A DNA stretch of 45,936 bases from Verrucomicrobium sp. BvORR106. GTDB lineage: Bacteria > Verrucomicrobiota > Verrucomicrobiia > Verrucomicrobiales > Verrucomicrobiaceae. The notes beneath the pieces were generated by a model. That model did not search any database. It saw only the letters and a list, made by a program, of their open reading frames with translations, and was not told the origin of the DNA. Made by a program: the position numbers and the translations under genes. Shown here piece by piece: positions 8,609 through 41,417 of this stretch. Every line of letters starts with the position of its first letter. Within the stretch, counting starts at the first letter, position 1. The stretch covers positions 1 through 45,936 of the forward strand of contig NZ_BATR01000047.1 in assembly GCF_000739655.1 (NCBI RefSeq), written 5' to 3'.

Positions 8609-9748
8609 CTATTTCCGCTCAGAGAACTCCACGCCCAGTTCATTCTCCAGACGCGTGATCGCGGACTTTTCCTTGGGTTCGATGAAAGCGAGCGACATAC
8701 CCTTGCGTCCCGCCCGGCCGGTACGACCACTGCGGTGGGTGTAGTATTCCGTCTGCTCCGGGAGCTGGTGGTGAATGACGAAGGCGAGGCCCACCACGTC
8801 GATGCCGCGGGCGGACACATCCGTGGTCACCAGGTACTGGAGACGTTCTTTCTTGAAGGCGCGCATCACCTTGTCGCGCTCCAGCTGGGAGAGGTCGCCG
8901 TGAAGCACGCCCACGGAGAAGTTCCGGGTCCCGAGTTCCTTGGCCAGGTTGATGGAGCCCGCGATGGTGCGGCAGAAGATGACGCCGCGGTCTTCCGTGC
9001 GGTCTTCGAGGAATTCTGAGATGCGATCCAGCTTCTCCGTGCGGTCACAGATGATGTAGCGGTGGGTGATGTCGCGGTTCACGACATGCGCCTTGTCGAT
9101 CGTGATCCGGTGCGCCTCGGGCTCCATGTAACCCTCGATCAGCTCCTGAATGCCCTCGGGGATGGTGGCGGAGAAAAGCCAGGTGTTCTTGCGGGACTTG
9201 GCGGTGAGCTGGAAGAACTGCTCGAGTTCCTTTTTGAAACCCAGGCTGAGCATTTCGTCGGCTTCATCCAGCACCAGGTAGCGCACCTTGGAGAGGTTCA
9301 GAGCCTCCCGCTGCACGAGGTCCATAAGGCGGCCGGGGGTGCCCACGACGATGTGCGTGGGGCGGCGCAGCCGGGAAATCTGGAGGTCCATGTCGTCCCC
9401 GCCTGTGATCGTCTCCACGAAGATCTTGTCCGGCACATGCTTGGTGAACTTGAAGAGCTGCTTGCCGATCTGTTTGGCCAGTTCCCGGGTCGGGGCCACG
9501 ATCAGGCCGTCAATCTGCCCGGCCTTCGCCTTGGCGGCGTGGGGAATGATCCGCTCCAGCATGGGCAGCCCAAAGGCGGCCGTTTTCCCCGTGCCCGTCT
9601 GGGCCTGGGCAATCAAGTCCCCGCGGTGGGCCAAAACGTGCGGAATCGTTTGCTGTTGAATGGCCGTGGGCTTGGTGATGCCGAGCTCTTCGAGCCCCTG
9701 GACGAGTGCTTCGGAGATACCGAGGTCTTGGAAAGTCTTCAAAATCAA
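8609..9748 (-). CDS. DEAD-box RNA helicase
   Basis: The 379-residue protein has the full set of motifs: Q motif (FQDLGISEALVQGLEE ... PTAIQQQTIP), Walker A AQTGTGKT, PTRELA, TPGR, the DEAD box in VLDEADEM, SAT, and motif VI HRSGRTGRAG. It stops shortly after motif VI, so it is a minimal helicase core without the basic or RNA-binding tail found in DbpA, CsdA or RhlE relatives. It should unwind RNA duplexes with ATP in ribosome assembly or mRNA decay. No ATG exists at the expected N-terminus. I place the start at a TTG (9748); another TTG at 9742 fits equally well, and the frame stays open upstream only through repeat DNA. About 700 bp of non-coding DNA upstream could hold a long leader. Confidence 0.93.
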   Translation of the reverse strand: MILKTFQDLGISEALVQGLEELGITKPTAIQQQTIPHVLAHRGDLIAQAQTGTGKTAAFGLPMLERIIPHAAKAKAGQIDGLIVAPTRELAKQIGKQLFKFTKHVPDKIFVETITGGDDMDLQISRLRRPTHIVVGTPGRLMDLVQREALNLSKVRYLVLDEADEMLSLGFKKELEQFFQLTAKSRKNTWLFSATIPEGIQELIEGYMEPEAHRITIDKAHVVNRDITHRYIICDRTEKLDRISEFLEDRTEDRGVIFCRTIAGSINLAKELGTRNFSVGVLHGDLSQLERDKVMRAFKKERLQYLVTTDVSARGIDVVGLAFVIHHQLPEQTEYYTHRSGRTGRAGRKGMSLAFIEPKEKSAITRLENELGVEFSERK

Positions 9749-9840
9749 TGCGGAATGGAGAGTTCGGAGGGCGGGATCGCCGGGGGAACCGTCACTATAC
9801 CGTGTTGCGCGGAATAAGCCAGTCCGGCTTCGCCGGAGAC

Positions 9841-9869
9841 ACCAGACTGCCAGACGCCAGACATCAGAC
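9841..9869. repeat. degenerate CCAGAC tandem repeat
   Basis: Four consecutive 7-8-nt units read ACCAGAC, TGCCAGAC, GCCAGAC and ATCAGAC, followed by the palindrome CCTGAGGTCAGG. They lie about 100 bp upstream of the helicase start and might be part of its 5' leader or of a protein-binding site. Function is not known. Confidence 0.4.
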
Positions 9870-9961
9870 CTGAGGTCAGGGGGAGACGGATGCGAGGGGG
9901 GGAGGCGACTGAGCGGGGCTGGGGACAAGCCACAAGGTGAAATGGCCGCAGAGTAAAGGAG

Positions 9962-9995
9962 GCGGGGTCTCCGGCCCCGCGGGTGAGCGGAGGAA
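9962..9995 (+). repeat. hairpin repeat, copy 2
   Basis: A GCGGGG/CCCCGC stem (9962-9967 with 9975-9980) is followed by GGGTGAGCGGAGGA. It shares layout and tail with the copies at 2691 and 10241. Confidence 0.5.
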
Positions 9996-10128
9996 GGCGT
10001 CGCGCGAGCGGGTGCCATGGAGGCTGACCGTCTGTGATGAGCTCCGACGCGCACGTCCCGGGAGGCCTCTAGCTCCACCTGATGTTTCGCCGCCCCGGGT
10101 TGTAGGGCGACCGAATCGGGGACGGAGC

Positions 10129-10221
10129 AAAGTAGTGCAGAGTCCCGCAGTCACGGGATCGTCGGTCGCGCTACCCACGTCTTCCAATACCGATCCCGTA
10201 TGCGGGACTCTGCACTACTTT
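10129..10221. repeat. long palindrome (TAGTGCAGAGTCCCGCA family)
   Basis: The left arm 10129-10161 and right arm 10191-10221 are inverted copies (33 and 31 nt) that differ by a two-base indel and one substitution around GCAGTCACGGG versus its partner. The loop is 29 nt. Transcribed from either strand it would give a very stable stem. It resembles REP/BIME-type elements. Confidence 0.75.
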
Positions 10222-10240
10222 CAGCTGCCGCCTGCGGCGT

Positions 10241-10276
10241 AGTCCGGTTGTGCCAACCGGCTTCGGGAGCGGAGGA
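10241..10276 (+). repeat. hairpin repeat, copy 3
   Basis: A CCGGTTG/CAACCGG stem (10244-10250 with 10254-10260) is followed by CTTCGGGAGCGGAGGA. The tail matches copy 1 at 2691-2729 closely, and both are preceded by GTAGTCCG or AGTCCG. Confidence 0.6.
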
Positions 10277-10463
10277 ATGCAGCGCGATGGGCGCTTGGGT
10301 GAGCTGAGGTCTGCTGCGTCAGGGGTGGCGCGCGGCAAGCGGAGCGCTTGCCCTACAGCGCGCTGGGTGGCGAGATGCTTCATGGCGAAGTGAGGTGCAT
10401 TATTAATCTGACATGCATGCGCCTTTCGAGACTGGAAGTACATTCAACTTCTCACCGAACTCA

Positions 10464-11126
10464 TCACGCCGAGGTGTGCTTGCGAAACCATCCGTCGAGC
10501 ACGGGGGCGTCACTAGAACTGATTCGTTTCTCCTCTAGTTGAACTACCACGCCGATTTCGTTCCAAGTGATCAACGATCCCACAGGCAGAGCAAGGAAGG
10601 GAACGATCTCAGGCTTAGCCAGGACAATGTGGTACAGCGATTGGAACTCACCCTGGCTGCTGTCTTGCGTGAAGTGATCAAACATCCAGCCACTGTCTGA
10701 CCCGCTTGTCTCTTCCCGCCACATGGCAAATTGCTGGCTATGCGGAAAACTTGGTGAAACAATTCCCGCAGAGCGAATCTCAGGAAACATCGGTTCGCAC
10801 TGGAGTGACTCACAAACCGAACTCTGCAAGACAAGGTGCCTGAATGTTTGATTCAAACCTCGCTGCCATTGGATGGGAACGGTTTGAAAATCTGGCTCCC
10901 AGAGCTCAAGACATGGGGACTCTTCAGTGAGGGCACCGTGATCCAGTAATGCAATCATCCATCCGATCTGGATGGTTTCTCCGGCCTGATATAGTGTTCC
11001 GGTGTGGATCGAGTGGTTGAGGTAGTCCACCAACCATCCTCCAGACTCGGCAATTTCATCGTCCACCTCGAACTGAATCTCCAACTGGCCGCGGGTTGGG
11101 CCGGTAGATGTGCGCAGAGTTGTCAT
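10464..11126 (-). CDS. hypothetical protein, possible Imm33/DUF2185-like C-terminus
   Basis: I do not recognise this 220-residue soluble protein with certainty. It has no signal peptide or membrane segment. The first half is Gln/Glu/Ile-rich beta-type sequence. The C-terminal part (about residues 130-200, MWREETSGSDSGWMF ... PFLALPVGSLITW) has the look of the Imm33/DUF2185 fold found in toxin-immunity and stand-alone proteins, where an REE...DSGW stretch is followed by a P-x-G-S turn. That resemblance is by eye only. Sampled GC is about 55 %, between the AT-rich cassette upstream and the chromosome. It is the last of five same-strand genes, 60 bp after the exonuclease gene. Confidence 0.65.
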   Translation of the reverse strand: MTTLRTSTGPTRGQLEIQFEVDDEIAESGGWLVDYLNHSIHTGTLYQAGETIQIGWMIALLDHGALTEESPCLELWEPDFQTVPIQWQRGLNQTFRHLVLQSSVCESLQCEPMFPEIRSAGIVSPSFPHSQQFAMWREETSGSDSGWMFDHFTQDSSQGEFQSLYHIVLAKPEIVPFLALPVGSLITWNEIGVVVQLEEKRISSSDAPVLDGWFRKHTSA

Positions 11127-11186
11127 AGCGACAAGTACTCACAAAACATACAGGTGAACGGAGAAATCCCTCCACTTTGCCACCAC

Positions 11187-11747
11187 TTACCCCTTACCGA
11201 GCCCCCTGACAATCCTCGCCATGTTCCGCGCATCATCGATCCCACGATGATGCGTGCCTTCCAGTTCCAGCCCGAGCATACCCAAGGCCTGACCCATGCC
11301 GGGGCGTTTCTTGAGCCCCTTGGCTTCGGCGAAGGCTTTCTTCAGGTTCAGGTGCGCTTCAGCGAAAGGGTAGGGCAGACCATGAAAGGCGCAGTCCTGC
11401 TGGAACTGGCCTTTGTCATAAGCACCCCATGACGAAAACAAGCAGTCGGGATAAGGCTCCAGCCAGGCCTTGAGATTGGCCAGGGCTTCAGGAAATTCCG
11501 GCGCACCATCGACATCAGCCTGGGTGATGGTGGTCAGCTTCGTGCAGAACGGCGTCAGCACCGGATGCCGTACCGGTTTGATGAAGGTGCAGAACTCCGA
11601 CACCGTCTCCATGGTCTTGCCGTCCAGAAGCACGGCCCCGATTTCGATGATTTCCATCTCATCCCGAGGCACCTTACCGCGATCGCAGCAGGTGGCCTCG
11701 AGATCGATGATGAGCAGAGTGGATTGATCGAAGGTCAATCTTACCAT
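11187..11747 (-). CDS. DEDDh 3'-5' exonuclease (DnaQ fold, KapD/ERI-1-like)
   Basis: The 186-residue protein is a stand-alone RNase T/DnaQ-type exonuclease. The metal ligands are Asp15 and Glu17 in IIDLEATC, Asp111 in WGAYDKGQF, and the general base His167 with Asp172 in HHRGIDDA. The DLEATC form of motif I is typical of the ERI-1/KapD branch, which trims RNA or single-stranded nucleic-acid ends. Its start codon overlaps the end of the 390-residue gene by 7 bp, so it should be co-translated with that cassette. Sampled codon composition is GC-rich (about 65 % in one line), like the rest of the chromosome and unlike the three upstream genes, so it may be the resident gene next to which the cassette was inserted. 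Confidence 0.9.
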   Translation of the reverse strand: MVRLTFDQSTLLIIDLEATCCDRGKVPRDEMEIIEIGAVLLDGKTMETVSEFCTFIKPVRHPVLTPFCTKLTTITQADVDGAPEFPEALANLKAWLEPYPDCLFSSWGAYDKGQFQQDCAFHGLPYPFAEAHLNLKKAFAEAKGLKKRPGMGQALGMLGLELEGTHHRGIDDARNMARIVRGLGKG

Positions 11748-12913
11748 CCCTTTGTGATTTTGGTGAACTCCGACAACGCCTTCCGCCAGGCACGTATCCA
11801 GCGACCATCGTTTCGTGACTCTTCAAGTATTACATCTTTGTCTTCCATGTGTTCCCATTCTTGCTCTGCATCTTTAAGCCAACCTCGTACTATCTCAAGG
11901 GATTCGGGACTGTTCAGCGTGGACTCCGTGTCATAGAACCAGCGCAAATATTGGCGCCATCCCAAACCAATCCAAGGGTTTGCAGGTTCGGACTGAAATT
12001 GGCTCAGGATTGCATTTCCAAACGAGTTGACCGACAAATCGGATCCAAAGCTTTTGGGACTGTCGCGCTGGAGCAGGAGAATGTCAGCGGTCCTTATCGA
12101 TGCTGCAAGTTTGTGTTCGAACCAGTAGGCAATTTGACGCCCTTCGTCATCGCTCTCTTCGAATCTGGACTTCGCAAATCTGCGGAGGTTCCACCATTTT
12201 CCCGTTGCGCAATTTGTCGCCTGTGCGGACTTAAATAACATCATGTCGGAACCGCAATGAGATACAGTAACCTTGCATGACATTTTTTCGAGAAGGTAAA
12301 TAAGAGCCAGAATGGCGCTTAGGCTCTCCACGCTAGAAAATTCACGTCTGGGCTCGACGTCGGATACAATAACCAAATAACAATTTTCTGCTTTGGTTTG
12401 AGCAACAAGGGATCCGATGCGAAGGGCGTCGTCGGCGGTAGAAAGCTGTTCGTAACCCACACATACGGTCAAGATGGATTTCAATTTGGTTGTAGATAAC
12501 GAGTCCGTAAGGCTTTCGTAGCCCTCAAAGCATCGGAGGTAGTAGTCATCGGTCCATTTCTTCGGAAGTATTGCTGGCGAACACACGCTTGTGCAGCCAA
12601 TTTCCATTGCCGCATAGTTGGCTACCTGCTTTCCTAATTTTTTCCACCAAGAGGTAGTGGATATCTCCTGGCTCTCGATGTCTGAAGGAAAATAGTCGTG
12701 GGTCGGGAGGTGACGGTAGGCGGCTTTCGGGGAGTAAAGTTGAGGGTCAAGTCGAATGTCCGCTACGCCTTTATCATAAAACTTGCTGACATGGTCTCTT
12801 AGGTCAGCTTGTGATTGGTTTACCGGGCTGAGAATGACGCCGCTATAGCCATCTAGCCCTTCTTCGGAAACAAGGCCTGCGGTATTCGCTCCCATCTGCA
12901 TGTAACTTCCCAT
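11741..12913 (-). CDS. unrecognised 390-aa alpha/beta protein of the kinase cassette
   Basis: I cannot assign this protein. It reads as a soluble alpha/beta protein with repeated strand-helix units. Strands near residues 25-31 (GVILSPVN), 50-58 (VADIRLDPQLY), 108-114, 146-154 (ILTVCVGYE), 179-187 (YLVIVSDVE) and 213-220 (KVTVSHCGSDM) suggest a TIM-barrel-like layout. Possible functional motifs are the LDPQLY strand end, HDYFPSD (72-78), CSPA (111-114), SHCGSDM (218-224) and CATGKWWNLRRF (235-246). The CATGKWWNLRRF pattern, at the end of the barrel-like part, faintly recalls tRNA-guanine-transglycosylase/DpdA-type barrels, but I would not claim it. AGGAG seven bases before the ATG supports the start. 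It lies 10 bp after the kinase gene and is AT-rich (about 40 % GC in sampled lines). Confidence 0.85.
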   Translation of the reverse strand: MGSYMQMGANTAGLVSEEGLDGYSGVILSPVNQSQADLRDHVSKFYDKGVADIRLDPQLYSPKAAYRHLPTHDYFPSDIESQEISTTSWWKKLGKQVANYAAMEIGCTSVCSPAILPKKWTDDYYLRCFEGYESLTDSLSTTKLKSILTVCVGYEQLSTADDALRIGSLVAQTKAENCYLVIVSDVEPRREFSSVESLSAILALIYLLEKMSCKVTVSHCGSDMMLFKSAQATNCATGKWWNLRRFAKSRFEESDDEGRQIAYWFEHKLAASIRTADILLLQRDSPKSFGSDLSVNSFGNAILSQFQSEPANPWIGLGWRQYLRWFYDTESTLNSPESLEIVRGWLKDAEQEWEHMEDKDVILEESRNDGRWIRAWRKALSEFTKITKGW

Positions 12914-12923
12914 ATTGAAGCTC

Positions 12924-13769
12924 CTATTCTATTTCTATTGCATTGATTAGATCTTCAGGTCGTTGGTATCTGAGTGCTGGCCATGGCTTGAGCATTTGAA
13001 CTAGGCAACGCATACGCATTTTCTCAAAAGCAGCAGCCGAACAAGGAGGTATGAATTTTCTATCCACAACAGACTGAATTGCTTCAGCGGAGGTCATAGA
13101 AAGCGATTGAAAGGGGTGCCGATCTAGAATCAGTTCTGCAATCATTACGCCAACTGAAAATTGATCGGAATGCCAGCCGATTAGTGCTTTGTCATTGTTA
13201 AGCTGTTCGGGTGACGAATAATATGGAGTGCCTGGTCCATTGGGCATCCACGATACTGTCATGGAAGATTGGGATAAATCTCTTACTAGGCCAAAATCCA
13301 CCAGTACAGGAGCGTGATGCCCACTTCTAAACATCACGTTTGTTGGTTTAATGTCGCGATGAACAAGCCTGGCTTCTCGTAGTACGGCCAGCGCGTGAAC
13401 CAGCCCTTTCAGAAGCTCGACAATGTCTTGCCGTCCAAGCTTTTCTGTCAGTAGTCTTTCGTCCAGCGTGCCCCCATCAAGATACTCCTCTACAATTACA
13501 TCAAATGTCCCTCTGTCGGATGTGTGTTCGGAGACGCTGATGACTTTTGCAACAAACTCACTTGAGCATTTCTTAAGTGCTTCAGTCTCCCTCTCTGTTC
13601 GTTCTCTTGTGCATTTGGATCGATCCGCCAGCTTAAGGGCTACGATTTGGCCTTCAGCTGTGGCAGTTTTGTAGGTGACTTTATATGCCCCAGCGCCGCA
13701 AAAGGAAATCAGTTTTAGACCCAGCTTAAGGGCCACTTCTTCTGCTGCTGCGATGTGGTTTGGATCCAT
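12924..13769 (-). CDS. soluble Hanks-type Ser/Thr protein kinase
   Basis: The 281-residue protein is little more than a kinase domain. It has a short glycine loop (GAGAYKVTYK, Gly25/Gly27), the ATP-anchoring Lys46 in VALKLAD, a helix-C Glu near residue 61-63, the catalytic loop HRDIKPTNV (Asp139, Lys141, Asn144), DFG at 158-160, a GTPYYSSPEQ activation-segment end (SPE for APE) and the structural Asp202 in HSDQFSVGV. All catalytic residues are present, so it should be active. It has no membrane segment, PASTA repeats or other sensory domain, unlike PknB-type housekeeping kinases. It overlaps the upstream PD-(D/E)XK-like gene by 44 bp and is followed after 10 bp by the 390-residue gene, so partner or substrate may be those proteins. 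AT-rich (about 43 % GC sampled). Confidence 0.93.
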   Translation of the reverse strand: MDPNHIAAAEEVALKLGLKLISFCGAGAYKVTYKTATAEGQIVALKLADRSKCTRERTERETEALKKCSSEFVAKVISVSEHTSDRGTFDVIVEEYLDGGTLDERLLTEKLGRQDIVELLKGLVHALAVLREARLVHRDIKPTNVMFRSGHHAPVLVDFGLVRDLSQSSMTVSWMPNGPGTPYYSSPEQLNNDKALIGWHSDQFSVGVMIAELILDRHPFQSLSMTSAEAIQSVVDRKFIPPCSAAAFEKMRMRCLVQMLKPWPALRYQRPEDLINAIEIE

Positions 13770-14244
13770 CGTCAGAAAGTCGGGTAAGCGCCTTGGCCGT
13801 TAACCAAGGCATAAGCGGATCTTTTCGCTTCGGAACAATTTCAAGTCTAGCTTTTTTTTCCACAACAATGACGAGACCGACTCCCTGACGGACAAATTCA
13901 TCTCTGGCCTTCAATGCCGGTTGGGCGGCACATTGAGGAAGCACGACATATGAGTAGTGGGCGAAATTGCGGCTTCGTCTCGCTTGTTCTAGAGCTCTTT
14001 TCCATTTTTGAAGTTTTGCTTCAAACGCGTGGAGGGTCGAGTCTGGATTTAGGCCTACGAGATCCGTTCTTCCTGAGACAAAATCAAACTCTGGGACGAC
14101 GGAAGAACAAAAAACTGGGCCGGTGCCGCTGCGGATGATGGCCTCAAGATCACTAACCAGACAGGCTTCGGAGCTGTACTCCCTGGGTTTCGAGTTGTTT
14201 GCGACAGGCGACATCCTCCTTGGTGGACAAGAAGCTTCTTGCAC
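13726..14244 (-). CDS. PD-(D/E)XK-like nuclease-fold protein
   Basis: The 172-residue protein shows the small-nuclease pattern: Glu52 (PEFDF), Asp61 in SGRTDLVGL, Glu75-x-Lys77 in HAFEAKLQKW, then a helix with Gln87 (RALEQARR) and a strand YSYVVLP. This D-(n)-ExK order and the following FAHYSYVVLP strand are typical of PD-(D/E)XK superfamily proteins in restriction, repair and defence contexts; catalysis itself is inferred. Two starts are possible: the GTG at 14244, or the ATG at 14214, which directly abuts a strong AAGGAGG. The AAGGAGG spacing is too tight for that ATG, so the longer form is given. It is first of the AT-rich cassette, and its 3' end overlaps the kinase gene by 44 bp. No signal peptide. 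Confidence 0.75.
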   Translation of the reverse strand: MQEASCPPRRMSPVANNSKPREYSSEACLVSDLEAIIRSGTGPVFCSSVVPEFDFVSGRTDLVGLNPDSTLHAFEAKLQKWKRALEQARRSRNFAHYSYVVLPQCAAQPALKARDEFVRQGVGLVIVVEKKARLEIVPKRKDPLMPWLTAKALTRLSDDGSKPHRSSRRSGP

Positions 14245-14286
14245 AATTTTACAATGTTTCCGTGAACAGTTTTTGATCGGGAGACT

Positions 14287-14320
14287 TGCGTCCTAGTATC
14301 AAATCAGATTCGAGGACGCA
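14287..14320. promoter_or_regulatory. 8-bp dyad upstream of the kinase cassette
   Basis: TGCGTCCT (14287-14294) and AGGACGCA (14313-14320) form a perfect inverted repeat with an 18-nt AT-rich centre. It sits 43 bp upstream of the first cassette gene and 41 bp past the carboxypeptidase stop. It could be an operator for the cassette or a terminator-like hairpin for the gene before; no T-run follows on the minus strand, which argues against a terminator. Confidence 0.4.
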
Positions 14321-14360
14321 GTTCCAGAATTAATAACGTTTTTCCAGGAAGAACTTGGGA

Positions 14361-15866
14361 TCACCCCACAAACCGAGCCTTCAAATGCTTCAGATAAGGC
14401 CCTGACTCTGTCGTCTTCCCGGTGGCGTGCTCCATGAGCTCGGCGGGGGAGAGGCAGGAGCCGGCGGCGTGGACGTTGTCGCGCAGCCACTTCAGGAGCG
14501 GGGCGTACTCGGCCTTGGTCGTGGCGTTCTTGATGGCGCGTTGTTTCATCGCTGCCGCGAAGAGCTGGGCGGCGTTGAGGTTGCCGAGGGTGTAGGTGGG
14601 AAAATAACCGAAGCCACCCATGGACCAGTGGATGTCCTGGAGGCAGCCGTGGGCATCGTTGGGCGGGGTGAGGCCGAAGGAGGACTCAAACTCGGCGTTC
14701 CAGGCATCAGGGATGTCGGACACCTTCAGCTTGCCGCTGAAGAGCTGACGCTCGAGGCTGAAGCGCAGCATGATGTGGAGGTCATAGGTGGCCTCGTCTG
14801 ACTCCACGCGGATGAAGGAGTACTCGGCGCGGTTCACGCCCAGCAGGAACTGGTCGAGTGTGAGCTTTTTCAGGTGCGGGAAGAGAGACACGGCGCGGGG
14901 GAACCAGCGCTCCCAGAAGGTGCGGGAGCGGCCCACGTGGTTCTCCCAGAGGCGGGACTGGGACTCGTGGATGCCGAGGGAGACGGCGCTGCCGGAGGGC
15001 AGGCCCCACTCGCCTTCGGGCAGGCCCTGGTCATAGAGGCCGTGACCGGTCTCATGCAGCACGCCGAAGAGGGAGGAGAGGAAGTCCCGCTCATCGTAGC
15101 GGGTGGTGAGGCGCACATCGCCGGGGCCGAAGCCGGAGCAGAAGGGGTGCGAGGTGGTGTCGATGCGGCCGGCGTCGAAGTCGAAGCCCACGGCCTCGGC
15201 GACCTCGCGGTTCAGGATCTGCTGCTTCTCCACCGGGCAGTTGCCCAGCATGGCCTTCAGAGGGGGAGCCTCGGCTGCGGAGCGGGCTACGGCATCCTTG
15301 GCAATCTTGGCCACGGAGGGGCGGAGGGCGGTGAAGAGCTTGTCGATGTCCTGCGCGGTGGCATCGCGCTCATGCTGATCCAGCAGGGCGTCATAGGGCT
15401 CGTTCTTCCCGCCCCAGCGGGCGGCCATCTCTTGGGCGAGACCCACGAGGCGCTCCAGATGCGGGGCAAAGGAGGCGAAGTCCGAGGCGGCGCGGGCTTT
15501 GGCCCAGGCGGCCTGACCGAGCGAGATGGCCTGGCTGTTCTGCTCCACGAGTTTCTTGGGGAGCTTCAGCGCACGGTCCAGTTCCCGGCGCAGCTGCTCG
15601 ATGTTGGCCTTCACGATGGAAGTGCGGGCAGCGGCCTGATCGTCCACCTCGTCCTCGGCCTTCTCCAGAAGGTTCCGGAAACGACGGGAGGTGAACTGCT
15701 CATGCGCCTGCCCGCTCAACTGGGCGAGGATGCGGGAGCGGTGCTCCACGCCCTTGGGCGGCATGTAAGTTTCCTGATCCCAGCCCAACACGGCGGAGGC
15801 TCCGTGGAGCAGGGAGACTTCACGGGCGGCGGTGCACAGTTGATCGTAAGTGGAGGTGGTGAGCAT
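14361..15866 (-). CDS. M32-family metallocarboxypeptidase (carboxypeptidase Taq)
   Basis: The 501-residue protein matches carboxypeptidase Taq in length and sequence. The zinc site is HETGH (His271, Glu272, His275) in VLHETGHGLYDQGLP, preceded by the family hallmark DVRLTTRYDE and followed by GIHESQSRLWEN. It removes C-terminal residues, other than Pro, from peptides in the cytoplasm, and no signal peptide is present. The ATG at 15866 gives the normal N-terminus (TYDQLCTAAREVSLLHGA). It reads toward the AT-rich cassette on the same strand but is separated from it by 116 bp containing a dyad, and it has normal high GC, so it is probably an independent unit. Confidence 0.96.
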   Translation of the reverse strand: MLTTSTYDQLCTAAREVSLLHGASAVLGWDQETYMPPKGVEHRSRILAQLSGQAHEQFTSRRFRNLLEKAEDEVDDQAAARTSIVKANIEQLRRELDRALKLPKKLVEQNSQAISLGQAAWAKARAASDFASFAPHLERLVGLAQEMAARWGGKNEPYDALLDQHERDATAQDIDKLFTALRPSVAKIAKDAVARSAAEAPPLKAMLGNCPVEKQQILNREVAEAVGFDFDAGRIDTTSHPFCSGFGPGDVRLTTRYDERDFLSSLFGVLHETGHGLYDQGLPEGEWGLPSGSAVSLGIHESQSRLWENHVGRSRTFWERWFPRAVSLFPHLKKLTLDQFLLGVNRAEYSFIRVESDEATYDLHIMLRFSLERQLFSGKLKVSDIPDAWNAEFESSFGLTPPNDAHGCLQDIHWSMGGFGYFPTYTLGNLNAAQLFAAAMKQRAIKNATTKAEYAPLLKWLRDNVHAAGSCLSPAELMEHATGKTTESGPYLKHLKARFVG

Positions 15867-16104
15867 GTCGGTGGATCAGTAAATCGGTGATTCAGTCAAC
15901 CAGGAGGGTCGCAGGGGTGTTTTTTGGGCCCGCCGGAAGTGGATGAAGCCTAAACGTCAGCATGGATTTTTCCAAATGCAATCGGTGCCGGAGCACGGCT
16001 GGGTGCAGGGATGGTGGAAATGACGAGATCCTGCATGCAGGAGCGCCAGGGCTGGTCCAGTGTGGGCGCCGCCGCACAAAAAAAGACCGAAGAGCCGCAC
16101 CCCC

Positions 16105-17085
16105 ATGCTGTTTACCTTCATGATCTGCACGCACAATCGCCGTCCTCTGGTGGAGCGATGTGTACGCGAACTCATGAAGCTCGAGCGTCCGGCCGGGGTG
16201 ACCTGGGAGGTGCTGGTGGTGGACAATGCCAGCCACGACGGGACGAGCGAACTCATCCGGCGACTGCAAGCCGAGTGGAGCCTGGCGACGGCAGGAGGCA
16301 GTGAAACACCGGAACTGAGGCTGCATCACGAACCCCGACTGGGGACGGCGTATGCGCGCCGCAGTGGGATCGCTGCCAGCCGGGGAGACTGGGTGGTGTT
16401 TGTGGACGATGACTGTTTGATGGAGGCCGACTGGCTGGTGCATGCCTCACGCTTTGTGACGGAGCATCCTCACGTGGGAGTCATCGGCGGACGCAATGTG
16501 CTGCTGTGGGAGGAGCCTCCTTCAGCCCTTTGCGAGGCCTATGGGGAGAGTCTGGCCCGGCAGGATTGGGGGGATGAACCCATGCAGGTGCCCGATGAAG
16601 GAAAGCGGGCATTCTGCGGGGCGGGCCTGGTCTTGAACCGGCAGGCCGTGGTGAAGAGCGGCTACCTGGAACTGGGGCATCTCAGCGGTCGCCGGGGCCG
16701 GTCGCTGATGGCCGGGGAGGACACGGAGGTGCAACTGCGCGTCCGCAATACGGGCGGGACGATGTGGTATTGCCCCGATCTGAAGCTGCGTCACTGGATC
16801 CCCAAGGAGCGCATGCCCCTGCGGCATCTGCTCCCTCTGCACCAGGGCTTTGGCGAAGTAGAAGCCTATCTCCGACTGCTGGGGGATCGCCAACCCTTCA
16901 CCCTGGCCAACCGCGCCAGGGCGGTTGGGTGGGCCTGGCAGGATCTGATGACCGTGCTCCGGCGCTTCTGGCTGGGGTGTGTGAAGTACCGCAATGAGCG
17001 CCCCACGTGGTTCATCCGGCTGTGGTACGCGTGGGGATTTCTGAAAGGGGCGCTGGTGCTGCTGATCCGCCGGCCGCAAGCGTAA
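16105..17085 (+). CDS. family 2 glycosyltransferase
   Basis: The 326-residue protein is a GT-A fold inverting transferase. It starts FTFMICTHNRRPLVERCV, has the nucleotide-binding VLVVDNASHDGT, the DxD-type VVFVDDDCLMEADW and an ED acceptor-site motif in MAGEDTEVQLRV. The last 70 residues are hydrophobic/basic (WAWQDLMTVLRRFW and AWGFLKGALVLLIR), suggesting a membrane-associated tail. I chose the ATG at 16105 because the strand that opens the fold begins there; 15 upstream codons look random. It points away from the carboxypeptidase gene (238-bp gap with no visible signal) and converges on the dioxygenase-like gene with a 37-bp gap. Donor and acceptor sugars are unknown. Confidence 0.92.
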   Translation: MLFTFMICTHNRRPLVERCVRELMKLERPAGVTWEVLVVDNASHDGTSELIRRLQAEWSLATAGGSETPELRLHHEPRLGTAYARRSGIAASRGDWVVFVDDDCLMEADWLVHASRFVTEHPHVGVIGGRNVLLWEEPPSALCEAYGESLARQDWGDEPMQVPDEGKRAFCGAGLVLNRQAVVKSGYLELGHLSGRRGRSLMAGEDTEVQLRVRNTGGTMWYCPDLKLRHWIPKERMPLRHLLPLHQGFGEVEAYLRLLGDRQPFTLANRARAVGWAWQDLMTVLRRFWLGCVKYRNERPTWFIRLWYAWGFLKGALVLLIRRPQA

Positions 17086-35495: not shown

Positions 35496-37631
35496 ATGAT
35501 TTCCAGCACCCCTTCTGCGCGAGGCGATCTCCCGGGAGATCCATCATGGGCTTGGGATTGGACGGCCCTCACTGGTGCTTTCCGACGAAGATGGATGTGG
35601 CTGGCCGCCGTGGTGGTGTTGGCCTTGGGATTGGGAGTAGGGTGGCTGGCTCTGACTCCGCCGGTGTATGAGGCACGGACGGTGGTGCAGGTGGAGCAGC
35701 AGGGCCCCACCTTGGTGGGAGGCAAGGACGTGGAGCGGGAGGACTTCCGCACCGTGGATGTCCTGCGGACCATTGAGCAGAATCTGGGCAGCACAGAGCT
35801 GCTTTTGCGGGTCGCCCGTGGCATGGATCTGTTGAATGACCCGCGGCTGAAGAACGAACGTCCAGGGGTGATGGCACGCTTCATGGCATTGCTTCCACGC
35901 GGGAAATCGGAGGCTCCTTCAGATGCCAGCCTGATCCGGCTCATGAATGACCGGGTGAAAGTGGGATTGCGACGCGGCACCCGGTTGATTGACATCACTG
36001 TCAGCGCTCAGGACCCCACGCTCGCAGCCCAGCTCAGCCAGACGGTGGTGGCGGAGTACACGCGCCTGAACTTTGAACAGAAGGTGGAGGCCTCCCGGCC
36101 GGCGCATGGCTACATGACGGGTGAACTGGAACGCCTGAAGCGGAAGCTCGAGGACTCGGAACAGAAGCTGCAAGCTTATCGGGAGGAGAAACGGGCGGTG
36201 TCGCTGGAGCAGACGCAGAACATTGTGGTGGAGTCGCTCAAGGATCTGAACAAGAGCCTCAGTGAAGCCCGGAGCGCCCGCATCAAGCTGGAGGCGGACG
36301 TGGCCGCGGTCGCCCAGGCACAGGATCGTCCGGCTCAATTGCTCGCGATGGCGGGCATCGGCAACCTCCCTGATGTGGTGGCCCTGAAACAGAGCGTGGC
36401 GGAGAAGGAGGCGGCGCTGGCCAGTCTGGCAGAGCGCTATGACGCGCGGCATCCCACTTATCTCCAGGCGCAGAGTGAACTGGCCAAGTTGAACCTGTCT
36501 CTCACCAAGGCGGCCCAAGGCGCGGCCGAGCATCTCAAGACCTCGCTGCATGCTGCGCAGGAGACGGAGCAGAAGCTGGAGGCGGCCCTCAAGGCCCAGG
36601 AAAAGCAGGCGCTGGACCTGAGCCACATCTCCATCCAGTACAACACCCTGGTGCGAGAAGTGGAGTCTGACCGCACGCTCTATGATGCGGTGCTCAAGCA
36701 GTTCAAGGAAACGCAGATCGTCCAGGGGGTGGAGCAGGGGGCGGTACGCGTGGTGGAGCCCGCCACCGTGCCGGACCGTCCTGTCAGTCCGCGAAAGGCG
36801 GCCGCCCTGGCCGTGGCCTTGTTGCTCGGTCTGGCAGGAGGCACGCTGACCACGCTGGTCCCGGCATGGTTTAATGCGCCCCTCACCAGTGTGGAGGAAG
36901 CGGAGCGGCATCTGGGCATCCCCGCCATCGCCGCAGTGCCCAAGTCCCGTCTGCGTGAAGGGCAGCACCGGATCTTTCTGCTGGACCAGCCAGCGGCTCC
37001 TGCGTCGGAGGCCCTGCGCTCCCTGCGGGCAGTCCTGAGTCTGCATGGCTCCAACGGAGACAGCCGATCCTACATCTTCACCAGTGCCCTGCCCGGGGAG
37101 GGGAAGACCTTCTGCGCGGTGAACTTTGCCGCGTCTCTGGCGCTGGAAGGGCACCGCACGCTGCTGGTGGATTTTGACCTGCGAGTGCCCGGGGTGGGGC
37201 TGCAGCTCTTTGGGAAGGATGCCCATCCTGGTGTGGCGGAGGTGTTGCAGGGGAGGGCCACGCTGGCGGAGGCCGTGCGCCCGACGAAGCTGGAGCATCT
37301 CTTTGTGCTCACCGCCGGGGCCAGCATCACGGGGCCTTCCGAGCTGCTGGCATCGCCCGCTCTGGAGAAGTTGCTCAAGGAGGCTGCTATTTCCTATGAC
37401 CGGGTGGTGATGGATTCCGCCCCCGTGCTGCCGGTGAGTGACACCCTGCGGCTCGTGGGGCATTCCCATCACACCTGCCTGGTGGTGCGGGCCGGGGCCA
37501 CGTCCGGCCGGGCCGTCGCGAGGGCGCAGCAGATGCTCACCCGGGCAGCGGGCGGGCCTCCGGCGGGATTCGTGCTCAATCAGGTCCCCCGGAGCTCCCT
37601 GGGATACGGGAGCTACGGCAACTACAAGTGA
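35496..37631 (+). CDS. Wzc-like exopolysaccharide tyrosine autokinase/chain-length regulator
   Basis: The 711-residue protein is a fused BY-kinase. It has a first membrane segment at residues 33-53 (WMWLAAVVVLALGLGVGW), a Wzz-type periplasmic part with long coiled coils (about 150-420), and a second membrane segment before the cytoplasmic kinase (about 440-470, KAAALAVALLLGLAGGTLTTL). The ATPase domain has Walker A LPGEGKT (Lys537), Walker A' LLVDFDLRVPG and Walker B VVMDSAPVLP. It ends SLGYGSYGNYK, a short tyrosine cluster expected to be autophosphorylated. Such proteins control export and length of capsule or exopolysaccharide chains. The ATG at 35496 follows TGGAGG at good spacing. It heads the rightward operon with flippase (24 bp on) and polymerase. 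Confidence 0.95.
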   Translation: MISSTPSARGDLPGDPSWAWDWTALTGAFRRRWMWLAAVVVLALGLGVGWLALTPPVYEARTVVQVEQQGPTLVGGKDVEREDFRTVDVLRTIEQNLGSTELLLRVARGMDLLNDPRLKNERPGVMARFMALLPRGKSEAPSDASLIRLMNDRVKVGLRRGTRLIDITVSAQDPTLAAQLSQTVVAEYTRLNFEQKVEASRPAHGYMTGELERLKRKLEDSEQKLQAYREEKRAVSLEQTQNIVVESLKDLNKSLSEARSARIKLEADVAAVAQAQDRPAQLLAMAGIGNLPDVVALKQSVAEKEAALASLAERYDARHPTYLQAQSELAKLNLSLTKAAQGAAEHLKTSLHAAQETEQKLEAALKAQEKQALDLSHISIQYNTLVREVESDRTLYDAVLKQFKETQIVQGVEQGAVRVVEPATVPDRPVSPRKAAALAVALLLGLAGGTLTTLVPAWFNAPLTSVEEAERHLGIPAIAAVPKSRLREGQHRIFLLDQPAAPASEALRSLRAVLSLHGSNGDSRSYIFTSALPGEGKTFCAVNFAASLALEGHRTLLVDFDLRVPGVGLQLFGKDAHPGVAEVLQGRATLAEAVRPTKLEHLFVLTAGASITGPSELLASPALEKLLKEAAISYDRVVMDSAPVLPVSDTLRLVGHSHHTCLVVRAGATSGRAVARAQQMLTRAAGGPPAGFVLNQVPRSSLGYGSYGNYK

Positions 37632-37655
37632 ACATCCAGAACCCTCCCTGCTGCG

Positions 37656-38951
37656 ATGTTTCATCGAATCACCCGCCTCTGCCGTGAGCGACTGGTGCAG
37701 AATGCCCTGGCGCTCTATGGCGTCACGTTTGCCAATGCCCTGTTGCCCCTCGTGCTCATCCCGTATGTGGCCCGGGTGCTTGGTCCAGGGCCGTGGGGCA
37801 CGGTGCTCTTTGCGCAGACCGCGGCCATCTGGCTGGGCCTGCTGGTGGAGTATGGGTTCACCTACTCCGCAACGCGTGAGGTGGCCCGCCATGCGGATGA
37901 GCCGGAGAAGGTGCGGCAGATCGTGACCGAGGTCATGGCGGGTCGCCTGGGGCTGTGCCTGCTGGCCGTCGTATTAGCACTCGTGCTCTGGTGGAGTGTG
38001 CCCGAGTTTCGCGCTGGCGGGCACATTCTCATGGTGGGCACTTGCTGGCTGGGGCTGGCCCAGGGGCTGAGCCCCCTGTGGTACTTTCAGGGCATGGAGC
38101 GCATGCGCCTGCCTGCGGTGCTGGAGGTGGCGTGCCGGGTGCTCTATGTGCTGGCGGTGTTCATCTGGGTCAGGTCGCCGGAGGACGCGGCCATGGTGCT
38201 GGTGTATCAGGCTGCGGCCCTGTCCTGCTCCCTCTTGATCACGCTGGGGATCATGTACCGGCAGACCGGGGCCGGGTTGGGCACTCTCTCCGGGGCGTGG
38301 CGGTCTCTGCGGGAGGCCTGGAGCTTCTTCCTCTTTGCGGCACTGGTGAATGTGTACACCCGGGCCAACAGTTTTTTCCTAGGACTCCTGGCCCCGCCCG
38401 CGGCGGTGAGTTTCTACGGCGGGCCGGAGAGGATGATGCGCGGCATCCTGAGTCTCACAGGGCCGGTCAATCAGGTGCTGTATCCGCGACTGGCTTGGCT
38501 GGTGAAACACGATCTGCCCGCTGCCCGCACCACGGTGCGCCAGGGGACACTGCTGGTGGCCGTGGTTGGCACCGGCTTGGGACTGGTCCTCACCCTGGGG
38601 GCCGCCTGGTGGGTGCCGTGGCTCCTGGGCTCCGGTTATGATGCGGCGGTGCCCGTGCTGCGGGTGCTCGGTCTGGTCTGCCCTTTCGCGGCGGTGAACA
38701 GCGTCATGGGCATCCGGTGGATGTTCCCGCTGGGCCTTGACCGCATCTACAACCGGATCGTCATGGCGGGGGCGGCCCTGAACGTGGGCCTCGTGTTTCT
38801 CCTGGTGCCCGCTTTTCAGGCGGCGGGGGCCGCCTGGGCCGTACTGGCAGCGGAGGGTTTTATCACCTTTGCGGTCTTCATCCTGCTGTGGCGGCAGGGG
38901 CTCAACCCTTTCCAGAGGAACCCGCTCCCGGAGGCGCAGGTTACCTCATGA
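37656..38951 (+). CDS. Wzx-like polysaccharide flippase
   Basis: The 431-residue integral membrane protein is of the MATE/MVF-type oligosaccharide flippase (PST) family: about 12 hydrophobic segments from NALALYGVTFANALLPLVLIP to VLAAEGFITFAVFILLW. The N-terminal VARVLGPGPWGTVLFAQ and LVEYGFTYSATREVARH are typical of RfbX/Wzx proteins. It should flip lipid-linked repeat units to the periplasm. It lies 24 bp after the tyrosine kinase and its stop overlaps the next start in an ATGA. Confidence 0.95.
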   Translation: MFHRITRLCRERLVQNALALYGVTFANALLPLVLIPYVARVLGPGPWGTVLFAQTAAIWLGLLVEYGFTYSATREVARHADEPEKVRQIVTEVMAGRLGLCLLAVVLALVLWWSVPEFRAGGHILMVGTCWLGLAQGLSPLWYFQGMERMRLPAVLEVACRVLYVLAVFIWVRSPEDAAMVLVYQAAALSCSLLITLGIMYRQTGAGLGTLSGAWRSLREAWSFFLFAALVNVYTRANSFFLGLLAPPAAVSFYGGPERMMRGILSLTGPVNQVLYPRLAWLVKHDLPAARTTVRQGTLLVAVVGTGLGLVLTLGAAWWVPWLLGSGYDAAVPVLRVLGLVCPFAAVNSVMGIRWMFPLGLDRIYNRIVMAGAALNVGLVFLLVPAFQAAGAAWAVLAAEGFITFAVFILLWRQGLNPFQRNPLPEAQVTS

Positions 38952-40315
38952 AAGCACCGGACACGACGGGTGGTCTGTGGTGGTGGAATCCCTGCTGGGT
39001 GCTGGTGCTCCCGCTCCTGGCCGTGGCCTGGGCGGCCTGGGTGATTCCTGAAACCGACTACCAGGCCTACTGGCGCATGCCCAAGTTTTTCACGGGTGCC
39101 GATCTCCAGCTGTGCCTGGCGGTGGCGGCCGCTTTTGCCCTGGGGGCCTTAGTGGCCATCGCCGTGGATCGGGCCATGCTCCGCCCGCGTCTCCGCGTCA
39201 GTGCTTCCGGTGAGGTCGAGCCTGGCTGGCAGTTGCTGCTGCTCTGGTTCTACATCGGCGTGGCCGTGACCTCGGCGGCGTATTTGCTCTGGTTTGCCCT
39301 CATCCTGCGGGAAACCGGGCCCGGCATTCTCGTCGGCGTGCTGCGCCTGGAGCAGGGGAGCATCTTTGAGCTGATCCGCCTGCGGAAGGACGCTGCGATC
39401 ACCGGCATCACCAGCTTCACCCAGACGGGCATCGGCACCTGGCTGGTGGGCGTGTTCCTGGCCCATCACCTGGGGTGGCGACGGGTGCGCTGGCCGATGC
39501 TCCTGCTGCTGGGGCTCACTTTCGTGAGGGCGGTGTTTCTGGCGGAGCGCCTCGCTTTGATCGAGATGCTGCTGCCGGGCTTCCTACTCTGGCTGCGACT
39601 GGGGGTGGTGGCCCGGAGTTCGCCAGCGCGCAAGCTGCTGCTGCAGCTCGTGCCGTTTCTGGGCATCGTGCTCCTTTACGGGATGTTTACGGCCAGCGAG
39701 TACTTCCGGTCATGGGGCTACTACGCGGCGCAGGGCGAGACTTCACTGCTGCGCTTCAGCCTGGTGCGGCTGTCCGGGTACTATGTGACCGCGCTGAACA
39801 ACGGCGCCCTGCTCTGGCACGGGATGGGCGAGCTTTATTTCCCGTATGCCACCCTGGAGTGGCTCTGGCGTTTTCCGCTGCTGGGCAGGCCTTTGAGGAA
39901 CCTCCTCGGCGGCTCGGATGATCCGGCGGAGCTGGCCGCCGTCCTGGTGGCGGAGGATGGGAATCCGGAGTTCAACAACCCCACGGGCATCTTTGTGGTG
40001 TTCACCGATTTAGGAGTGCCGGCGGGGCTGGTGTTCTGGGCGGCCTTTGGCGGGGTGGTCATGCTCCTCTATCGGGCCTTCCGGCGCGGATCGCTTGCCG
40101 GGTTGTTCCTCTATCCCTTTCTCTTCATGGGGCTCACGGACCAGGTGCGCATCTTTTACCTCACCACCGGGCGCACCTTTGCCGCATGGGCTTTCCTGCT
40201 GGTGGCGTGGATGATCGCACGAAAGGAGTTTCAAGTGGCAGAGTGGTTCAGCGTACGGCGACGGGCATCGCCTCCGGCCTCGGTGTCGCCGGGGTCGCCC
40301 ACGGTGCCGCCGTGA
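38948..40315 (+). CDS. Wzy-like polysaccharide polymerase / O-antigen ligase-type membrane protein
   Basis: The 455-residue membrane protein has about 10 hydrophobic segments and a large soluble loop in the second half (GELYFPYATLEWLWRFP ... FNNPTGIFVVFTDLGV). It has no strong sequence signature, but size, topology and position straight after the flippase are those of Wzy polymerases, which join repeat units in the periplasm. The start at 38948 overlaps the flippase stop (ATGA). Its last 68 bp overlap the end of the pyruvyl-transferase gene on the other strand, so the Arg/Pro/Ser-rich tail (VRRRASPPASVSPGS) is also antisense coding sequence. Confidence 0.8.
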   Translation: MKAPDTTGGLWWWNPCWVLVLPLLAVAWAAWVIPETDYQAYWRMPKFFTGADLQLCLAVAAAFALGALVAIAVDRAMLRPRLRVSASGEVEPGWQLLLLWFYIGVAVTSAAYLLWFALILRETGPGILVGVLRLEQGSIFELIRLRKDAAITGITSFTQTGIGTWLVGVFLAHHLGWRRVRWPMLLLLGLTFVRAVFLAERLALIEMLLPGFLLWLRLGVVARSSPARKLLLQLVPFLGIVLLYGMFTASEYFRSWGYYAAQGETSLLRFSLVRLSGYYVTALNNGALLWHGMGELYFPYATLEWLWRFPLLGRPLRNLLGGSDDPAELAAVLVAEDGNPEFNNPTGIFVVFTDLGVPAGLVFWAAFGGVVMLLYRAFRRGSLAGLFLYPFLFMGLTDQVRIFYLTTGRTFAAWAFLLVAWMIARKEFQVAEWFSVRRRASPPASVSPGSPTVPP

Positions 40316-41417
40316 AGTTTGCCGCCGCCTCCAGCGCATAGGTCTCCGGCGAAAGCGCGGGGTGTCCTTCTTTGCGCAGGAGCCGCTCGATCAATGCCGC
40401 CACTTCCTCTGGATCCGCGGCATCAGCCAGCACCCGGAGGCTGGAGGGCTGTCCGATGTCGTCGAGGAAGTCGGTGCATTTCTCGTGATACTCCACGAGG
40501 GCAAAGGGCACGTTGTTGAGGTAGGCGGTGATCCCGGCATGCATGCGCACGCAGAGCACGGCGTGGCAGGCAGCCAGGCTGTGCCAGCAGCCGAGCAGGT
40601 GGTCATCGCTGGTGATGATCTCGGCAAACAGGCCCTCTGATGCCAGACGGTCCTGAAGCTCGCAGCAGAGGGGCATGTCACCCCAGCGCGGGTGCGTGTT
40701 CAGGCAGAAGATGCGCACCCTCGTCCCCCTCCTTTTCGCATGGCGGCAGATCCCTTCCATGAGGGCCGCATTGCGCACCCGTTCACGTTCTACATCACCA
40801 CCGGAGTGACTTTCATAGAACCGGAAGGACACCCCCAGCGTGGGTGGGGCGGCGGGAGCGGGCTCCTCCCAGAAACTCCCGGGCAGGAGCAGGGGCAGAG
40901 CCCCCACCAGATCCCGGGCCATGACCGGCTGGTAGGGCACTCGCATGCGCTCCAGCATCGTGAGGGACTGCTGGTCCCGCACCGCGACGTACGAGAACTG
41001 CCGGAGGAATCGCGCGGCCTCCGCCTCATCCGCGGCATCGGAGAAGGGCCCCACGGAGACACCTATGGCGGCGAACTTCGTCCACCCCCGCTCGGCGGCT
41101 ACGCGCTGGAGTTTCTTGAGCAGGCTGCCGTGGGAGAGGGTGGAGCCGCCGGCATACACCAGCAGATCCCGGGCGGCCAGCGCGCCTGTCAGAAAGGCCA
41201 GCCGGCTCAGCTTTCCTCCCAGTCCCGGGGCGGTGTAGAGTTCATTGGGAAACCATGACGGCACCCGAAAGTGGGCGTCAATTCCATGAACCGGCGGCCC
41301 CAGGATGTCCACATCATGCCCCGGCCACCAGCGAGCCGCCCCCAGCACGCTCGTGAGGTTGAAGAGGTCGTCCCCGTAGTTGGAGAAGCCGTAGTAGCCG
41401 TTCAGCGTGATTTTCAT
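40248..41417 (-). CDS. polysaccharide pyruvyl transferase-family protein
   Basis: The 389-residue protein has the fold-opening MKITLNGYYGFSNYGDDLFN and the phrases LLVYAGGSTLSHGSLL, AIGVSVGPFSDAADEAEAARF, VAVRDQQS and CHAVLCVRMHAGITAYL, which mark the WcaK/CsaB-type pyruvyl transferase family. Members transfer a pyruvyl ketal from phosphoenolpyruvate to a sugar of the polysaccharide, though some family members have other roles. The tail is Pro/Ala-rich and overlaps the polymerase-like gene. Its start overlaps the stop of the upstream GT2 gene (ATGA), so the four leftward sugar genes form an operon. Confidence 0.88.
   Translation of the reverse strand: MKITLNGYYGFSNYGDDLFNLTSVLGAARWWPGHDVDILGPPVHGIDAHFRVPSWFPNELYTAPGLGGKLSRLAFLTGALAARDLLVYAGGSTLSHGSLLKKLQRVAAERGWTKFAAIGVSVGPFSDAADEAEAARFLRQFSYVAVRDQQSLTMLERMRVPYQPVMARDLVGALPLLLPGSFWEEPAPAAPPTLGVSFRFYESHSGGDVERERVRNAALMEGICRHAKRRGTRVRIFCLNTHPRWGDMPLCCELQDRLASEGLFAEIITSDDHLLGCWHSLAACHAVLCVRMHAGITAYLNNVPFALVEYHEKCTDFLDDIGQPSSLRVLADAADPEEVAALIERLLRKEGHPALSPETYALEAAANFTAAPWATPATPRPEAMPVAVR

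Follow-up and report, generated by a model that had tools for sequence, protein, structure and literature searches.

A recurrent kinase, nuclease-like and TGT-fold gene trio in Verrucomicrobium sp. BvORR106 as a candidate anti-phage module

A cassette of three genes lies on the minus strand of a 45,936-nucleotide stretch of Verrucomicrobium sp. BvORR106 (contig NZ_BATR01000047.1 of assembly GCF_000739655.1; the whole stretch is called the window here) and is best read as an undescribed accessory or stand-alone anti-phage module. Gene A (13726-14244, 172 residues) encodes a PD-(D/E)XK nuclease-like protein, gene B (12924-13769, 281 residues) a Hanks-type protein kinase, and gene C (11741-12913, 390 residues) a protein predicted to have the fold of tRNA-guanine transglycosylases (TGTs). 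Coordinates, strand, the 44-bp overlap of A and B and the 10-bp gap between B and C were re-derived from the sequence and agree with those of an earlier note on this DNA; the GTG start of gene A is uncertain, and its codon 11 is an in-frame ATG. The three genes stand close together in 24 of 29 distinct C loci, and copies lie inside operons of three kinds of modification-based defence and in a tailed-phage contig. That the trio is a defence module is judged highly probable. The fuller statement, that it is a mobile anti-phage module working alone or as an accessory to systems that mark self-DNA, such as type I restriction-modification (R-M), Hma and bacteriophage exclusion (BREX), is one on which belief and doubt are about evenly balanced.

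Recurrence of the gene trio

Relatives of C were collected from plasmids, viral contigs, genome contigs, second copies in two genomes and whole-genome searches; loci and genomes are given the handles L and G below. Among genome contigs, 14 of 35 candidate stretches were confirmed as relatives. The protein is rare: within the phylum of Verrucomicrobium it was found in 2 of 387 genomes with a single protein as query and in 7 of 387 with a profile, in the phylum of G391 in 6 of 198 genomes (that centre included), and in the classes of G392 and G395 in 1 of 369 and 1 of 63, the single hit being the centre in both cases. The plasmid search yielded one relative, on a Polaromonas plasmid, phage records none at E 0.01, and viral contigs one and the same contig in three alignment-based scans and nothing with a single C sequence. 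Two pairs of loci proved identical (L002 and L016, L004 and L019), and each pair was counted once.

The five loci outside the 24 complete ones comprise three at contig ends, of which L006 begins before A while L060 and L061 begin before B and retain A, and two fragments of C (L058, L059) near which neither A nor B was found. Among the complete loci, C is shortened in L009, at a contig end, and in L011, where its open reading frame (ORF) has 147 residues; in L089 both B and C are split across two frames. The arrangement varies. In 18 loci the order is A-B-C on one strand, in L025 it is B-C-A, and in five (L026, L057, L087, L088, L089) B and C are followed by a convergent A, read from the other strand. 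The tails of C and A overlap by 15-36 bp in the five convergent loci, and equally in L060 and L061. Because order and strand vary while the trio stays together, the link between its members looks selected. Additionally, the distances between loci calculated for A, for B and for C are correlated over 18 loci (r 0.977-0.988; 0 of 2000 permutations reached such values), a set that leaves out L006 and L011 and does not yet include the loci found later, and the correlations persist at 0.93-0.97 inside clade 1. The neighbourhood check proposed in the earlier note thus shows that the three genes do recur as a group, both in distantly related bacteria and in one phage contig.

Association with known defence operons

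The surroundings of several copies point to defence, the role that the earlier note had suggested from composition and partner types. In L085 one strand carries pglXI (1510 bits), A, B, C, a BrxH helicase gene (1522 bits) and pglZ (1002 bits). PglXI is the methylase of type 3 BREX and BrxHI is assigned to type 2, according to PMC12839542. As these two assignments disagree, L085 is a BREX operon without a firm type, its helicase having a best model labelled BrxHI. In L075/L013 the trio follows hmaA (1698 bits), hmaB (1104) and hmaC (1092) on the same strand. Type I R-M linkage is found in L014, L057 and L088, and is absent from the window copy: L057 reads hsdM-hsdS-B-C, convergent A, hsdR; L088 has the same arrangement with one extra gene ahead of hsdR; and L014 holds an N6-methylase gene with HSDR_N, plus a Methylase_S gene that overlaps A by 4 bp. 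Further neighbours are an EcoRI methylase and a GmrSD/HNH gene, 50 bp before A (L012), Abi_C directly after C (L010), and a 1588-residue protein that scores 236 bits against the candidate family PDC-S37 (L087). In total, a recognised or candidate defence neighbour is present in 8 of the 24 complete loci; the C fragment of L058 also lies near an HsdR-like gene.

The copy on the 33-kb viral contig (L019, IMGVR_UViG_3300047328_000107) is preceded by terminase, portal and head morphogenesis genes and followed by head protease and major head genes. This is a moron-like placement in the contig of a tailed phage, and together with the copies in BREX, Hma and R-M operons it strengthens the case for a defence role.

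The nuclease-like and kinase proteins

Protein A is predicted to be a nuclease, on the strength of its modelled fold and its conserved residues. Its AlphaFold model has a mean predicted local distance difference test score (pLDDT) of 86.9. When Foldseek's best 1000 chains, the set covered for both A and C, were re-ranked, the best match was 3dnx (Z 14.2, root-mean-square deviation (rmsd) 3.5 over 134 residues), and further matches, to restriction and repair nucleases of the restriction-endonuclease fold, included PaqCI (Z 10.9), 2vld (10.5) and EndoMS (10.2). The full set of Glu, Asp, Glu-x-Lys and Gln expected of such a fold is in place: E26, D61, E75, K77 and Q87, and with them G58, occur in 24 of 24 aligned rows, the alignment leaving out L011 (whose ORF starts after E26), L089 and L071-L074. 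Asp61 and Glu75-x-Lys77, on which the earlier assignment was built, are thus both present in the window copy and conserved in its relatives. The window copy has no Pfam match over the curated cut-off and none in NCBIfam or PADLOC, and a search of PDB sequences with A found no match. Part of the family carries an insert of about 75 residues, which may be a winged helix; in L061 it has a weak match to TrmB (E 0.0012).

Protein B matches the Pfam family Pkinase (1.6e-32). K46, E61, H137-R138-D139, N144, D158 and G160 are found in 22 of 22 rows, in an alignment without L006, L011 and L089. The description of B as a complete kinase with Asp139 and a DFG motif at 158-160 accordingly holds also for its relatives, save that the Phe of DFG varies. 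Its best PADLOC match is mad6 (3.3e-37), followed by the PD-T4-6 kinase models (2.1e-31).

These features bear on the alternative that the module regulates its R-M, BREX or Hma neighbour, with the kinase tuning restriction and A and C providing DNA binding and sensing, in the manner of PglW or part of DndF. The embedding of the cassette in such operons and the winged-helix-like insert in part of the A family would suit a regulator, as does the precedent, from modification-linked defence, of PglW and some DndF proteins, in which kinases are joined to a NERD-type nuclease and to a sensory part (PMC12839542). However, some copies, that of the window among them, have no recognised partner, and the catalytic residues of A, kept in 24 of 24 rows, would be superfluous for pure binding. 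A regulatory role is therefore held to be unlikely, though it fares best among the alternatives to a defence module in its own right.

The predicted TGT-fold barrel protein

Protein C was described in the earlier note as unrecognised, and it remains without a family in four libraries: the window copy has no match in Pfam, NCBIfam or PADLOC at E up to 1, and its single match in PHROG is at chance level (E 0.25). Among the scanned members of both A and C, no Pfam or PADLOC family rose above chance, NCBIfam having been searched with the window copy alone, and PDB sequences gave C chance matches only. Structure prediction, which the earlier note had proposed for the 172- and 390-residue proteins, is more informative: beside the restriction-endonuclease fold of A, it indicates a TGT-type barrel for C. 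The AlphaFold model of C, built from 15 sequences, has a pLDDT of 83.2 and a predicted template modelling score (pTM) of 0.88, with residues 240-258 under 50. Its best re-ranked match is human QTRT1 (6h42_B; Z 19.4, rmsd 4.0, 312 residues), and the first 31 rows are all TGT chains (Z 19.4-16.8, at most 313 residues aligned). These are followed by DpdA (Z 15.7, 270 residues) and Cap10 (Z 14.6, 268 residues), the latter nearly tied in Z with the first unrelated barrel (Z 14.5 over 197 residues). Barrels of the viral fold library match C weakly, and a few of these carry the name queuine tRNA-ribosyltransferase or TGT (E 0.018-0.2). The model thus suggests that C shares the TGT fold, and common descent is likely.

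The residues of C that hardly vary are Q6, G8, D56-P57-Q58, Y60, P113, T149, Y179 and G238, which sit mostly at the ends of barrel strands, and F246, inside the poorly modelled stretch. In place of the TGT motif DSGG(F/Y)Q, C has DPQxY at 56-60, with Asp in 22 of 22 covering rows and Gln in 21 of 22; by strand order D56 corresponds to the Asp of DSGG. In TGTs the catalytic nucleophile is an Asp located where the last barrel strand ends (D280 in Zymomonas), and conserved Cys residues contribute to a structural zinc site. At the nucleophile position the host TGT reads FDCV, DpdA of phage 9g CDSSSW, and C has Gly238 in 24 of 24 rows, a correspondence drawn from strand order and not from residue-level superposition. 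No Cys of C is common to half of 20 rows, and among Cys and His positions His 9, 222 and 372 alone reach that level.

In a further alternative, C would be an altered but active enzyme, a transglycosylase or a deazaguanylating one, and would place a mark on DNA, tRNA or a partner protein. A would then cut unmarked targets under the control of B, a form of self-marking similar to that of Dpd. The TGT fold and the fully conserved D56 would be in keeping with this, as would two relatives of the fold in immunity: DpdA, which belongs to an R-M-like defence system and is homologous to TGTs (PMC12839542), and Cap10, a remodelled TGT-family protein of the cyclic-oligonucleotide-based anti-phage signalling system (CBASS; PMC11996544). 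In contrast, the invariant Gly at the nucleophile position and the lack of conserved cysteines speak against base exchange, and a methylase beside several loci already marks self. Moreover, no deazaguanine-synthesis or QueC-like neighbour was noticed in flanks that were read in part and without a dedicated search. Taken together, these points make self-marking by C distinctly improbable, a shade more so than regulation of a neighbouring system.

Insertion site and horizontal transfer

The cassette occupies a foreign insert at 11719-14359, to which no strand is assigned and which differs from two genomes of the same genus. A DNA search with window positions 8609-16443 in 19 genomes (the own genome and 18 relatives), followed by local alignment with blastn, showed that homology to G217 and G771 ends at 11718 and restarts at 14371 and 14360. 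Between these edges G217 carries a 947-residue HD-CE/HATPase gene (L054:2485-5328) and G771 a 1161-residue pentapeptide-repeat gene (L055:3744-7229), each in AT-rich DNA. G770, a third genome of the genus (76% complete), gave no useful match to the insert region in the DNA search. Across these genomes the site looks like a small hotspot with variable contents.

Since G217 and G771 keep both flanks with other AT-rich DNA between them, the insert is delimited as 11719-14359 and the downstream DEDDh exonuclease gene (11187-11747, minus strand) is assigned to the host backbone. This KapD-like gene matches RNase_T in Pfam (8.5e-25) and the KapD profile of NCBIfam at 2.1e-27 and 96 bits, under the cut-off of 169, and homology to both genomes covers it over 11209-11718. 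Its 7-bp overlap with C, from which a coupling to the cassette had been proposed, is real, but the exonuclease is not a cassette member, being syntenic in G217 and G771 without A, B and C. The other backbone flank is a 501-residue carboxypeptidase-like gene (14361-15866, minus strand), which we take to be an M32-type carboxypeptidase and which is 95% identical at the DNA level in G771 and 98% in G217.

Composition agrees with transfer. Whole-gene GC is 0.507 for A, 0.468 for B and 0.488 for C, with third-position GC (GC3) of 0.41-0.53, and the insert averages 0.481 against 0.644 at 14360-16500 and 0.627 at 8609-10078. The lowest-GC 2.6-kb segment of the window, scanned in 50-bp steps, begins at 11701. 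The value of 40-43% GC previously given for sampled lines of the three genes is not borne out as the GC of the genes: 60-bp lines within the cassette range from 0.33 to 0.58 with a median of 0.49, so individual lines at 40-43% may exist, yet they do not represent the genes. Codon-usage scores are -0.27 for C, -0.46 for B and -0.37 for A, compared with 0.247 +/- 0.108 for 19 reference ORFs, which were called mechanically in this window alone and some of which are perhaps not genes. By gene, A, B and C depart from the window's other long ORFs in codon use. The claim of transfer is sustained by the AT-rich DNA, the atypical codons and the finding that two genomes of the genus carry different genes at this site. 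Elsewhere, cassette GC lies under that of both flanks in 11 of 14 genome loci (the exceptions being L013, L014 and L017, and the flank of L006 being very short on one side) and under the rest of the sequence in 4 of 4 further loci.

Three other features of the window were recorded. The DEDDh gene is adjoined by a gene for a 220-residue Imm33-like protein (10464-11126; PF24719, 1.7e-9; GC 0.53). Short stretches at about 9810-10370 match dozens of places in genomes of the same genus and represent dispersed repeats. The strongest negative AT skew of the window, about -0.26 to -0.33 over 3 kb, lies at 37500-40500.

Evaluation of the anti-phage reading

Several observations weigh against reading the trio as an anti-phage module with a TGT-fold component. 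Every locus was found through C, so the rate of 24 in 29 is conditional on C. Distance correlations inside clade 2 are weak (0.32-0.65), and shared descent with the host lineage is also compatible with the permutation result. A reverse search with an A profile found A in 9 of the 387 genomes of the own phylum, beside C in five, and without B or C in four (G292, G015, G330 and G283; 12-14 kb examined); A is therefore not exclusive to the module. The link of C to TGTs is one of predicted fold only: Foldseek by itself puts other barrels first and QTRT1 48th, and hhalign, run against narrow profiles of 12 related bacterial TGTs or of one DpdA, found no match. The active site was likewise mapped on the model, by the order of its strands, and residues 240-258 are of low model quality. 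Finally, 16 of the 24 complete loci, the window copy being one, lack a recognised defence neighbour; for these the flanks were mostly inspected by eye, and some of the contigs are short.

The least probable alternative, a selfish or toxin-antitoxin-like cassette carried in islands without any defence role, is very unlikely. In its favour are mobility, AT-richness, overlapping genes, presence in a phage contig and the 16 of 24 loci without a recognised defence neighbour; against it stand the copies embedded in BREX, Hma and type I operons and the joint preservation of three intact enzyme-like proteins.

The loci in which A stands without the other two genes form a small collection of their own. 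Around A in G015 lie genes for HsdR, a KAP NTPase and Methylase_S, in G330 an FRG-domain gene, and in G292 an hsdS gene that by eye resembles that of L057. In L072:2459-11716 a type I R-M locus that lacks B and C contains an A-family nuclease gene convergent with a KAP NTPase gene, and L073:4928-7692 holds an FRG-domain gene, a family-less gene of 392 residues and a convergent A-family nuclease gene with the insert. The 392-residue partner in L073 gave no profile match to C. This set is possibly a sister system with FRG in place of the kinase.

Comparison with known systems

No description of the trio was found in the open-licence literature of PubMed Central, judged by titles and the beginnings of abstracts, most subscription papers lying outside that collection; within it, the view that the combination is an unrecognised one stands. 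Parts of the module do resemble known systems. Like PglW of type 2 BREX and the kinase-bearing DndF, it combines a restriction-type nuclease, a Hanks-type kinase and a sensory part. Unlike these, which form one fused NERD-pseudokinase-kinase protein (PMC12839542), it consists of three separate proteins, includes a TGT-fold barrel, and has in A a protein without a Pfam match to NERD.

The kinase gives two further points of likeness. By its best PADLOC match, Mad6, named in its model as the kinase of a methylation-associated system, B resembles the methylation-associated defence system (MADS). Membership of MADS was rejected: B reaches 86.3 bits against the NCBIfam MAD6 model, whose cut-off is 460, and in PADLOC neither A nor C of the window finds a match at E up to 1. 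PD-T4-6, whose kinase models match B second best, is a single-gene system, whereas the kinase here has two fixed partners.

Guard proteins of R-M loci offer a comparison of placement. The gene prrC lies between hsdS and hsdR. As in PrrC/EcoprrI and RloC, extra genes are here, at some loci, linked to a type I R-M locus, and a guard role is proposed; PrrC is kept inactive by its R-M partner until an anti-restriction peptide of the phage sets it free (PMC2610378). PrrC and RloC are ABC-ATPase anticodon nucleases without a kinase, a TGT-fold barrel or a PD-(D/E)XK protein. A, B and C belong to other folds or families, and none of them unites an ABC ATPase with an anticodon-nuclease triad in a single protein. 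DpdA and Cap10 share the fold of C, but DpdA of phage 9g keeps the motifs LDSG and CDSSSW. Cap10 acts with Cap9 and a nucleotidyltransferase and targets the end of a partner protein, according to PMC11996544.

Proposed mechanism and significance

For the reading as an anti-phage module, a division of labour among the three proteins can be proposed, although tentatively, with doubt somewhat outweighing confidence. Protein C would be the recognition part. It lacks the base-exchange Asp and conserved cysteines and keeps the residues at the strand ends, for which reason it probably binds rather than swapping a base; the ligand could be a partner protein, a DNA base that carries a modification, or the anticodon loop of a tRNA. 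The last of these is what TGTs bind, which makes tRNA a natural target, though as the actual target of the module it is improbable. Protein A would act as the nuclease effector, and B would be the switch, turning A or C on or off by phosphorylating it. Inside R-M, Hma and BREX operons the module would serve as a guard or back-up, firing when the main system meets a phage or is disabled by one, like PrrC beside EcoprrI. In its most specific form the scheme is a kinase-gated guard: C, having lost base exchange, would recognise deaza-modified phage DNA or the anticodon loops of tRNA and guide the nuclease A, and the whole would plug into BREX, Hma and type I R-M and also occur alone and in phages. 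This form is possible but on the doubtful side.

If the reading as an anti-phage module is true, one module common to three kinds of modification-based defence would constitute an accessory layer that present catalogues have missed. If C reads tRNA or modified bases without exchange, it would add to DpdA and Cap10 another case in which immunity has put the TGT fold to new use, tied in this case to a kinase and a nuclease.

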